Of a stretch of 34,713 bases of DNA, positions 1 through 3,854 are shown one piece after another. The position numbers and the translations under genes are program-made. Position 1 is the first letter of the stretch. Every line of letters begins with the position of its first letter. The DNA comes from Accumulibacter sp. Its GTDB lineage: Bacteria; Pseudomonadota; Gammaproteobacteria; Burkholderiales; Rhodocyclaceae. The stretch spans positions 1 through 34,713 of the forward strand of contig JAISAZ010000087.1 in the NCBI GenBank assembly GCA_031266435.1, read 5' to 3'. The notes beneath the pieces are model-generated. The model had not been told where the DNA came from. It worked only from the letters and a program-made list of their open reading frames with translations, and did not search any database.

Positions 1-1906
1 TCTGCCCTCCGATTTCCGCACCCTTTCCGCGCGGCCCCTGCTGGCCTTCGGCAAGGCGGACGGCGCGCCCTGTGTGCTCTATCTCAAGGGCGGCGGCAGC
101 ACCTGTTGGGATCCGGCCCTGGGCGGGGAACCGCGCCCGCTGACCGCGGATTTTGCCGAGGGCCTGTCCTCGGAAGCGCTGTGCTTTTACGAGCCTTTTC
201 CCGCCGGCAAAAAAGACCGGAAAACCCTGCTGCGTTTCATCTTCGCCACGGCAAAACCGGCGCTCGCCACCGTGTTCCCGATCGGCCTCGCGGCCGCGCT
301 CATCGGGCTGGTCATGCCGGTGGCCACTCAGTATGTGACGGGCAACATCATTCCCACGGCCAACCTGCCGGAGCTGTGGCAACTGGCCTGTCTGCTTGTT
401 GTGCTGACCACCTGTCAAACAGTCCTGAGCGTGGTGCCCGCGCTGGTCATGCTGCTTTTCGGGACGCAGCAGTACGAGCGTTTCCAGGCCGCCGTCTTCG
501 ACCATATCCTGCGCATTCCGGTCGCAAGTTTTCAGATCTGCGATGCGGGCGACATGACGCAGCGCGTCCTCGGGGCTTCGCGGGTGCAGCAGGCGGTGTT
601 CGGGATCATCTCGGGCCAGTTCCTGGGATCGGTCTTCTCCCTGTTCAGCCTCGCCATGATGTTCTACTACAGCCCGGCGCTGGCCTGGGCGGGAACGACG
701 GCCGTCGTGCTCTATGCCTTGCTCTGGTTTCTGCTTGCCGGAATCAATTTGCGCCCCCTGGCGCTTCAGGTTACCGCTTCCGGCCGGGTCAGCGGCCTGA
801 TGAAGCAGTTTTTTGACGGCATCGGGAAAATTCGCGGCGCCGGGGCGGAACAGCAGATTGTCTCGCGTTTTCTGGACGATTTCTCGCCGCTTGCGCGCAA
901 CAACTTCGTCATCGCGCGCAACGGAGCGATGCTGAATGTCGTCACGACGATTTTCCCCATGCTGATCTCCGTCCTGTTTTACGGTCTCGCGGGAGGGTGG
1001 CTGGACAAAAATCTGCCTCTGCCGGTTTTTCTCGCCTTCATGGCGGCGTTTCAGAACTTCCAGGGCGGGATCATGGGCATTTCCTCCGGCTGCTGGTCCC
1101 TGCTGGTCATCGAACCGGAGATACGGCTCCTGATGCCTCTGCTCGATGCCGACCCGGAAGACGCGGGCGAGCGATCCCCACCCGGCACCCTGGACGGCTC
1201 CATCGAACTTGCCCATCTGAGTTTCCGCTACGCCGCGGACGCGCCGCTGGTTCTGGACGATGTTTCCCTCAAAGCCGAACCGGGTGAATTTGTCGCCGTT
1301 GTCGGGCCTTCCGGGTCGGGCAAAAGTACGCTGGTGCGCCTGCTGCTGGGCTTTGAGCGGCCGGAAAAGGGCGGCATCTACTATTCGGGAAAGGACCTGG
1401 CGACCCTCGACCCACGCGCCGTGCGGCGGCAGATGGGCGTTATCCTGCAAAACAGCAAAATCCTTCCGGGATCCATCCTGGAAAATCTTGCCGCCGGCGC
1501 GGAGCATTCGCTGGATGACGCCTGGCGTGCCCTGGAACTTGCGGCCTTTGCCGAGGAGGTCAAGGCCATGCCCATGGGAATCCATACCCTGGTTTCAAGC
1601 GATACCCTTTCCGGCGGGCAGCAGCAGCGCATCCTGATTGCGCGCGCCTTGATGGGATCGCCGAGCATCGTCATCATGGATGAATCCACAAGCGCCTTGG
1701 ACAACCGCACGCAGGACGTGGTTTCTGGCAATATGGAACGCCTGCGCATGACCCGCTTGGTCATCGCGCACCGGCTCTCGACCATCGTCCAGGCCGACCG
1801 CATTTACGTGCTGGAAAAAGGCAAGCTGCGCCAGTCGGGTAGTTATGAAGAACTGTGCGCCGAGGAAGGCCTCTTCAAACGGCTGGCGGAGCGCCAGCGT
1901 GAATAA
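1..1906 (+). CDS. NHLM-type bacteriocin/RiPP export ABC transporter, permease-ATPase (5' end outside window)
   Basis: The reading frame is open from base 2 with no start in view, so the gene begins left of the window; the GTG at 74 is internal. The fused protein has an N-terminal part of unknown fold, then about five or six membrane segments (residues 62-310 counted from base 74), then an ABC ATPase. ATPase motifs are Walker [10 protein letters not shown] (411-419), Q-loop Q459, signature LSGGQQQ (512-518), Walker B IVIMDE (532-537) and H-loop H566. The layout and phrases such as 'GSILENL' and 'SALDNRTQ' match the NHLM bacteriocin-system transporter family that lacks a C39 peptidase (TIGR03797 type). 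That family pairs with a C39-containing ABC protein and an HlyD-like adaptor to export leader-bearing peptides. Those partners are not visible and would be upstream. The gene ends 20 bp before a terminal-inverted-repeat element and faces a double-glycine leader peptide gene 1.6 kb downstream. Confidence 0.85.
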
Positions 1907-2029: not shown

Positions 2030-3214
2030 ATGAAAAACACTGTCATTGCCATTCTAGCCGCCCTGTGCGGCACCCTGCTGCTGTATGCGCTGGGCGTCTT
2101 CGATTTCGGCCCGTTCATCGACCGGGAGCATCGCGCCCATTACACAGCCCTGCGCGCACGCGCGGTCGACGATGCGCCCGAATATATTCTGGGCGCCGTA
2201 TACAACGCCGCGGACTGGGCCGACGCGGAGACTCTGAAGGGCGTCCGTCTGGCGGTGGACGTCGTCAACGGCGGCAAGCCGGCCAAGCGCTTCAGGCTCG
2301 AAGCACGGGGCACGGCGTCTTCAAGGCCGCTGAACAATGCGGCCATTCAGGGCTTCGCCGACGCCCCCGATACGGCTGTCGTCATCGGCCCTTTTGTCTC
2401 GTTTCACATCCCCGCATCGCGCGCCCTGACGCAGTTTCACGGTCTGCCCCTCGTTTCGCCCAAGACCGTTGTTTCCGAAAAACTGCCCGCTCTCGACCCC
2501 GACAATTTTGTCACCGTGTTTCCGCCGCTGGAATTGTGGGTGCGGGCGACGCTGGACCACATGGAAAAACAAGCCGTGCGCAAACTCCTGATCCTCGGTT
2601 CCGAGGCGGGAAGCTACGGCGACATCGTCTGTACGGTTCTGGAGCGCAGCAGCCGCAATCGCCGGGGCTTCGACCAGGTTTTCCGCCTGAACTACCAGCG
2701 GCCCCTGCGCCGCGAGGCCATAGAGCGATTGATACACAGCCACGCCGGAGAGCGGAAGTTCGACGCCGTCTTTTTTGGCGGTACCTTGCGGGATTTCGCC
2801 GAATTCCTGCCCATTTTGAAGGACAACGCGATTCATCTGCCCGTGTACGGTCACGACGACCTCAACGTGCCCGAAGTCACGGCATTGAAAAATCCTTTCG
2901 ACCTGTACTTGCCCAAGGCCGTATGGCGCAACGCGATCCCCGGCTTCGACGCAGCGTGGCGGGAACGCTACGGCGGAGAACCGAGTTATCACGCGCTACT
3001 CGGCGCGAAAACCGTGTTCCTGCTGGCCGAAGTCCTGACGCAAAAAGGCGGGTACGACGCACAGCGTATTGTGGATTCGCTGCGGAAAACCGTCCGCGAG
3101 CGCCTGGACAACCCCGAAACCGCGCCGCGGATCGTCGTGGACGCCTTTCCGGCCGCGAATAGAGATTGGGACGCTCCCCCAGGCCCCGCCGGGGAAAATA
3201 CACCCTTGAAGTAA
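2030..3214 (+). CDS. Membrane-anchored type-1 periplasmic-binding protein (Leu/Ile/Val-binding-protein-like)
   Basis: The protein is 394 aa. It starts at the ATG at 2030 (MKNTVIAILAALCGTLLLYA), chosen because it begins a hydrophobic signal/anchor of about 18 residues and follows AAGGA at 8-nt spacing. The body resembles the type-1 periplasmic-binding fold of branched-chain amino-acid receptors: 'ILGAVYNAADWADAETLKGVRLAVDVVN' near the N-terminus, 'VVIGPFVS' and 'LPLVSPKTVVSEKLP' in lobe 1, 'FDAVFFGGTLRDFAEFLPIL' in lobe 2. No lipobox is seen, so it may stay membrane-tethered. No permease or ATPase of an importer adjoins it; its upstream neighbour is an NHLM exporter, so a ligand-sensing or export-accessory role is possible but is inference. 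The gene is bracketed by two MITE-like copies in opposite orientation, and its ribosome binding site lies in the first. Confidence 0.75.
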   Translation: MKNTVIAILAALCGTLLLYALGVFDFGPFIDREHRAHYTALRARAVDDAPEYILGAVYNAADWADAETLKGVRLAVDVVNGGKPAKRFRLEARGTASSRPLNNAAIQGFADAPDTAVVIGPFVSFHIPASRALTQFHGLPLVSPKTVVSEKLPALDPDNFVTVFPPLELWVRATLDHMEKQAVRKLLILGSEAGSYGDIVCTVLERSSRNRRGFDQVFRLNYQRPLRREAIERLIHSHAGERKFDAVFFGGTLRDFAEFLPILKDNAIHLPVYGHDDLNVPEVTALKNPFDLYLPKAVWRNAIPGFDAAWRERYGGEPSYHALLGAKTVFLLAEVLTQKGGYDAQRIVDSLRKTVRERLDNPETAPRIVVDAFPAANRDWDAPPGPAGENTPLK

Positions 3215-3361: not shown

Positions 3362-3380
3362 GAGAGGGCAAGGTCCCTCA

Positions 3381-3430
3381 AAAAATAAAGCGCGTAGCTT
3401 GGGGTCCGCTTCGCTCCCCCCAAGCTACGC
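3381..3430 (-). terminator. Rho-independent terminator for the leader-peptide gene
   Basis: A perfect 13-bp stem (3392-3404 with 3418-3430; GCGTAGCTTGGGG) closes a 13-nt loop. On the minus strand it is followed by CTTTATTTTTTGAG. It lies 30 nt past the stop codon of the double-glycine peptide gene. The loop arm carries the CTTCGCTCCCC wording of the dispersed TTGGG...CCCAA hairpins, so the terminator appears to be a member of that repeat family. Confidence 0.8.
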
Positions 3431-3459
3431 GGGCTAAGCGAGTTTTGGAACAGGCTCAA

Positions 3460-3783
3460 TTACCGGACAATACATTTGAAGGCTTGCTTGCCGGTCTTGA
3501 GCATGTAGACCCCCTTACCCGGAACCGCAATCGTTTGTTCGCCGCCCGTGCCGGGAGCCGATTCGATTTTCTGGCCGAGGATCGTGTAAATTTCGATAAG
3601 GTCCTTCGTGTTAAATACCTTGATATTACAGTCCTCCCCCGCAGGGTAAGCTACACATTTACCCTCGGCCAAGGCCTTGGCCACCGCCTCATCCATCCCC
3701 AACTGTCCGCCGCCCGCCACCTGCTCCAGTTCGTCCTCCGAAAGCTCCTTTGAGATCTTTTCTGTTTTTTCTTCGTTTGTCAT
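3460..3783 (-). CDS. Double-glycine leader peptide with T9SS sorting-domain-like core (candidate NHLM/RiPP precursor)
   Basis: The protein is 107 aa. It starts at the ATG at 3783, preceded by GAGGAAGGAATTATT, a strong Shine-Dalgarno. A longer frame exists upstream but only as the antisense shadow of tyrB. Residues 1-25 form a canonical double-glycine leader: L14 S15, E18 L19, V22 and G24 G25 fall at -12, -11, -8, -7, -4, -2 and -1 of a predicted cut after G25. The mature part is 82 residues with Cys43, Cys52 and Cys104. Its second half (IEIYTILGQKI ... GVYMLKTGKQAFKCIVR) reads like the final strands of the type IX secretion C-terminal sorting domain. The gene is convergent to an NHLM exporter and has its own terminator. 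Leader and placement argue for an exported peptide; the sorting-domain resemblance is my reading and its function is unknown. No maturation enzyme is in view. Confidence 0.8.
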   Translation of the reverse strand: MTNEEKTEKISKELSEDELEQVAGGGQLGMDEAVAKALAEGKCVAYPAGEDCNIKVFNTKDLIEIYTILGQKIESAPGTGGEQTIAVPGKGVYMLKTGKQAFKCIVR

Positions 3784-3854
3784 AATAATTCCTTCCTCAG
3801 TAAATAACAGCGCTGTTGAGCGCGCAGGCTGGCGTGAAACAACCCAGGACCGGA

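Follow-up and report, generated by a model that had tools for sequence, protein, structure and literature searches.

Double-glycine (GG) leaders and the sorting domains of the type IX secretion system (T9SS) belong to unrelated export routes, and sequences resembling both are brought together in one small gene of Accumulibacter sp. The gene is located at positions 3460..3783, on the minus strand, of contig JAISAZ010000087.1 (assembly GCA_031266435.1), whose positions 1 to 34,713 form the window, i.e., the whole stretch of DNA that was analysed. It encodes a protein of 107 residues, in which a GG leader precedes a core similar to a T9SS sorting domain. The leader motif, this similarity, the predicted fold, the intact gene signals and a nearby gene for an NHLM ATP-binding cassette (ABC) subunit are the results of computation. 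We propose that the gene product is a precursor from which a small protein is exported: an NHLM-type ABC exporter with a C39 peptidase would recognise the NHLM/Nif11-type leader (residues 1-25) and cut after Gly25, and the core of 82 residues would then leave the cell unmodified and fold on the outside into a beta-sandwich that stands free and is of the T9SS sorting-domain type. The balance of the evidence tips modestly towards such a leader-guided, unmodified, free sorting-domain fold.

The open reading frame (ORF) is intact, consists of 107 codons plus a stop codon (3460-3462), and has the highest codon score of all six frames at this position. On the same strand, a ribosome-binding site, GAGGAAGG, is found at 3791..3798, with the ATG 7 bases further on. 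The terminator (3380..3431, minus strand) is composed of a 14-bp hairpin (3391-3431) and a U-rich tract; it starts 28 bases past the stop codon, and its folding energy, -36.5 kcal/mol, was equalled in none of 200 shuffles. The position and quoted sequence given in an earlier sequence-only reading, as well as the cysteines at residues 43, 52 and 104, are borne out by translation.

The leader is encoded at 3709..3783 (minus strand) and was delimited by profiles and motif comparison, with the motif ELSEDELEQVAGG at residues 13-25. All the consensus residues that had been claimed for it are present: L14 (position -12), S15 (-11), E18 (-8), L19 (-7), V22 (-4), G24 (-2), and G25 (-1). In the motifs printed in PMC2887384, the cut is preceded by ELSDEELEAVAGG in precursors of the Nif11 type (N11P) and by ELSDEQLDAVAGG in those of the nitrile-hydratase type (NHLP), and the present motif is identical to them at 10/13 and 8/13 positions, respectively. 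Among 354,711 positions in 2,602 ORFs, this leader is the only one to reach 10/13 identity to the N11P motif; the three positions with 8/13 correspond to GG-leader-like ORFs of the sister genome G299 and of a Ruminococcus genome. In a scan of the whole genome with TIGR01847, this ORF was the sole match (16.9 bits, cut-off 15.7); scanned as a single protein, leader plus core scored 14.1 bits, below that cut-off. The same protein obtained 15.6 and 18 bits with TIGR03798 and, because the cut-off of this family is 32.3 bits, it is not classed as a member.

The core (residues 26-107, 82 amino acids, 8,648 Da) is encoded at 3463..3708 on the minus strand and was defined by profiles and predicted fold. 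Residues 1-42 comprise the charged GG leader and a predicted helix, and residues 43-107 (3463..3657, minus strand) form a putative sorting-domain-like beta-sandwich of seven predicted strands. With TIGR04183 (cut-off 23 bits), the whole protein scores 23.0 bits and the core alone 23.7 bits; this ORF is the single TIGR04183 match in its genome. The gathering score of Por_Secre_tail (27 bits) is missed, with 16.3 and 17.0 bits. The only Pfam families listed for the core are Por_Secre_tail and DUF6383, which we take to be a Bacteroidales C-terminal domain. A profile built from 12 of 13 real sorting domains (the one lacking YPNP was omitted) gives the core 15.0 bits, a score reached by none of 20,000 shuffles (18,322 scored); in a control with another profile run, the shuffles attained a maximum of 8.3 vs 10.9 for the core (5,000 made, 4,467 scored). 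The distance from G-x-Y to the stop is 17 residues, and it ranges from 17 to 22 in 13/13 real sorting domains. For the predicted fold of the core, in which strand 4 would start at residue 72, VIA-align ranks the sorting domain of RgpB first, but tied; the fold of type A sorting domains is a seven-stranded Ig-like 3+4 sandwich. By spacing, in a by-eye comparison with the motifs given in PMC11285876, G70 and K103 fit the glycine of loop beta3-beta4 and the lysine of strand 7. A phmmer search against the PDB matched no sorting domain.

The predicted fold also bears on a different kind of precursor, that of a ribosomally synthesized and post-translationally modified peptide (RiPP), the cysteines of which would be modified by enzymes encoded to the left of the window. 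Leaders of the NHLP/N11P type are known from modified peptides (PMC2887384), the core has three cysteines, and the sequence on that side is unassembled. However, a folded, seven-stranded domain with family similarity is predicted for the core, and scans of the adjacent gene products gave an ABC transporter, a ligand-binding protein and an aminotransferase, with no search for modification enzymes over the remainder of the window. We regard a RiPP precursor as highly improbable.

Several observations weigh against the proposed export of a free sorting-domain fold, and they concern the specificity of the profiles, the exporter, and the isolation of the gene. Regarding the first, TIGR04183 is unspecific in this bacterial family, with its cut-off exceeded in 17/395 family genomes (this one included), and some unrelated domains outscore the core on sorting-domain profiles. 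Profile similarity alone does not identify a sorting domain in these bacteria; the score was dropped as sole proof, and its place was taken by the end position, the ranking of Pfam families and the fold. The combination of a score >5 with an end no more than 8 residues from the stop occurs in the window ORF alone, although this filter is imperfect, since an 811-residue ORF resembling real cargo (L035) fails it by ending 15 residues after the match. In the Pfam control, carried out on 8 of 29 loci (L042-L070), six of the 8 being above the TIGR04183 cut-off, all eight domains have a best family other than the sorting-domain ones. These controls argue against a generic immunoglobulin (Ig)-like beta-sandwich (PPC, SdrD B, FlgD or carboxypeptidase-regulatory), a fold common in proteobacterial proteins, the likeness of which to T9SS domains would be at the superfamily level. 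A core of this kind, which would still be exported by means of the leader, seems to us rather unlikely, being at odds with both the end position and the Pfam families listed. As a separate observation, one family genome carries two strong TIGR04183 matches (38 and 36.6 bits) on a single contig (L042, G125:C65), and this contig may be a contamination because the match read resembles Bacteroidota cargo.

Regarding the exporter, an NHLM transporter had been reported nearby, and the gene is real: it matches TIGR03797 with 651 bits, from profile position 92, at 1..1906 on the plus strand, and its end is 1.55 kb from the peptide gene. It encodes, however, the NHLM ABC subunit without peptidase, and its 5' end is cut by the contig edge, its frame (634 amino acids) being open to base 1; the score stays below the equivalog cut-off of 709. 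Matches to this subunit at E<=1e-115 are found in 2/395 family genomes, including this one. The presence of a competent C39 peptidase, also expected from the sequence-only reading, was not sustained for the assembled genome: the only C39-family match above cut-off is a type I transporter on contig C14, in which the residue aligned with the catalytic Cys of the G299 NHLM peptidase is Thr. Neither the NHLM peptidase ABC (TIGR03796) nor the NHLM HlyD (TIGR03794), another component that had been looked for, has a match above cut-off in the assembly. Contig C73, considered as a carrier of the missing peptidase, was ruled out since it encodes a different ABC protein. As the contig breaks off within the ABC gene, the peptidase and HlyD genes may lie in the assembly gap; the NHLM peptidase is either there or absent. 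In the sister genome G299, the peptidase-less ABC subunit is accompanied by a C39 ABC protein with the Cys and by HlyD, and a GG-leader ORF is found ~3.5 kb past the HlyD gene. As for the cargo, unrelated peptides of 26-66 residues, besides the native one of 88, go through a C39 exporter of E. coli, and passage is reduced at 116 (PMC10231218).

Two side observations concern these systems. The type I system on contig C14 (L006, 3173-15538, plus strand) comprises an RTX-like protein of 2,793 codons, the degenerate-C39 ABC protein, and HlyD. The locus of G299 (L030, 7701-17831) contains the full NHLM set, and its GG-leader ORF, ending in TINGLDTTRPTYDTDVGF, has a weak match, below cut-off (E 0.0037), to TIGR04497 (ATP-grasp target RiPP).

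Regarding isolation, the gene is an orphan, with no homologue in 395 other genomes of relatives (the 1/396 matched was its own). In the family, 3/297 were matched including its own, the other two at E 0.003 and inside larger unrelated frames, one of them broken by a stop. Peptide patterns selected 53 stretches in genome_contigs, and the search of viral contigs gave 10; none of these was confirmed, and no homologue was found in plasmids and phages; the core alone retrieved 20 plasmid records at E<=10, all of E 0.7 and worse (19 from Acinetobacter and one from Parabacteroides). Leader and core were also sought together by means of a DNA pattern (ATGA start, fixed motifs, limited spacing), which selected 4 stretches in genome_contigs (84,980 species), and no such fusion was seen on translation; as the pattern is strict, this does not prove the absence of the fusion elsewhere. 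One of these stretches is a GG-leader-like ORF of Ruminococcus with a different core. No title or abstract opening on such a fusion was found in partial listings of the open-licence literature. The new class that had been suggested for this combination of leader and core rests on one orphan gene, no orthologues in which to compare the leader having been found. As an additional observation, the Ruminococcus sp. RGIG6843 locus (L034) has two GG-leader-like ORFs, with the motifs ELSSQELKAAVGG and ELTSEELSRVSGG.

The origin of the gene is a further question, since its isolation would also be expected of a relic, that is, of a horizontally transferred fragment of a Bacteroidota sorting domain behind an orphan leader, with export lost and the peptidase missing. 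In fact, its synonymous codon usage (0.048) is the least host-like, below the lowest value (0.052) of 1,300 random 107-codon stretches taken from 13 genes of the window (livM was excluded because its coordinates are out of frame), and a GC content as low as that of the gene occurs in 0.2% of such stretches. Both this codon usage and the lack of a competent C39 peptidase in the assembled sequence would fit a relic. On the other hand, the frame is intact, the leader motif is exact, a ribosome-binding site and a strong terminator are present, and the contig breaks at the expected site of the peptidase gene. In addition, leader and core have similar codon scores (0.05 and 0.04), as expected if they were acquired together, which suggests that the fusion entered as one gene. 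The whole gene, with its leader, was probably acquired recently, and its being a relic is clearly unlikely. The locus is part of this genome, as a 49-base intergenic repeat, with four copies in the window (1927, 3313, 22409, and 32446) and others on contigs C14 and C75, otherwise occurs only in loci of this genome: it was found in 7/63 further loci searched (<=12 mismatches), and all 7 belong to it. One copy is ~90 bp past the stop codon of the peptide gene. More families of intergenic repeats, of the types TCAGG(T/A)ATCAGGAATCAGG and CTTGGGCATCGCTTCGCTCACCCCAA, are present at 7281-27503 of the window.

A gene located between those of the ABC subunit and the peptide (2030..3214, plus strand), and flanked by two copies of the 49-base repeat, encodes a putative membrane-anchored, LivJ-like ligand-binding protein (PDB 4mlc, E 1.5e-6). 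This protein has a hydrophobic stretch at its N-terminus and matches no Pfam family above cut-off.

Concerning function, most weight is given to a small exported protein with a structural or competitive use, and we infer that, after the presumed cut and export, the folded core might act at the surface or be directed against neighbours. A very unlikely variant is that of a sorting-signal mimic, in which a bacterium outside the Bacteroidota would send out the free domain by way of a peptide exporter, and the domain would dock on the T9SS shuttle or sortase at the surface of Bacteroidota neighbours; if so, their secretion would be jammed or the domain displayed on their surface. The fusion of a GG leader and a sorting domain would show the reuse of the latter as a stand-alone exported protein, and would offer a small object on which to test the action of sorting domains apart from their own secretion machine, as well as a possible interference of bacteria with the T9SS of others. 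If the fold alone were shared, a folded cargo following an NHLM-type leader would still be unusual.

Three known systems can be compared with this protein. Like the N11P and NHLP leader peptides, it has a motif 2 ending in GG and an NHLM ABC gene nearby; however, its leader is of 25 residues vs 69 (N11P) and 87 (NHLP) in Table 3 as printed in PMC2887384, its core is a predicted folded domain, and its TIGR03798 score is far below cut-off. With the small secreted proteins bearing GG leaders and the class II bacteriocins (TIGR01847) it shares the GG leader and a core small enough for export, and its proposed mode of action is that of such exported small proteins. It differs from both in that its core resembles a sorting domain, and no activity or immunity gene has been assigned. 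In Treponema denticola, the proteins with GG signals are secreted and killing was not detected, according to PMC11879956. The third comparison is with the T9SS type A sorting domains of RgpB and NucA. Unlike T9SS cargo, the protein has no passenger in front, the GG leader takes the place of the Sec signal, and its genome holds no second TIGR04183 match; since neither a passenger nor a Sec signal was seen in the sequence (no signal-peptide program was run), it is not classed as T9SS cargo. As in those domains, TIGR04183 is matched, here at its cut-off, and the domain ends the protein; seven strands are predicted for the core, its fold may be similar, and by spacing G70 and K103 may correspond to the loop glycine and the strand-7 lysine.
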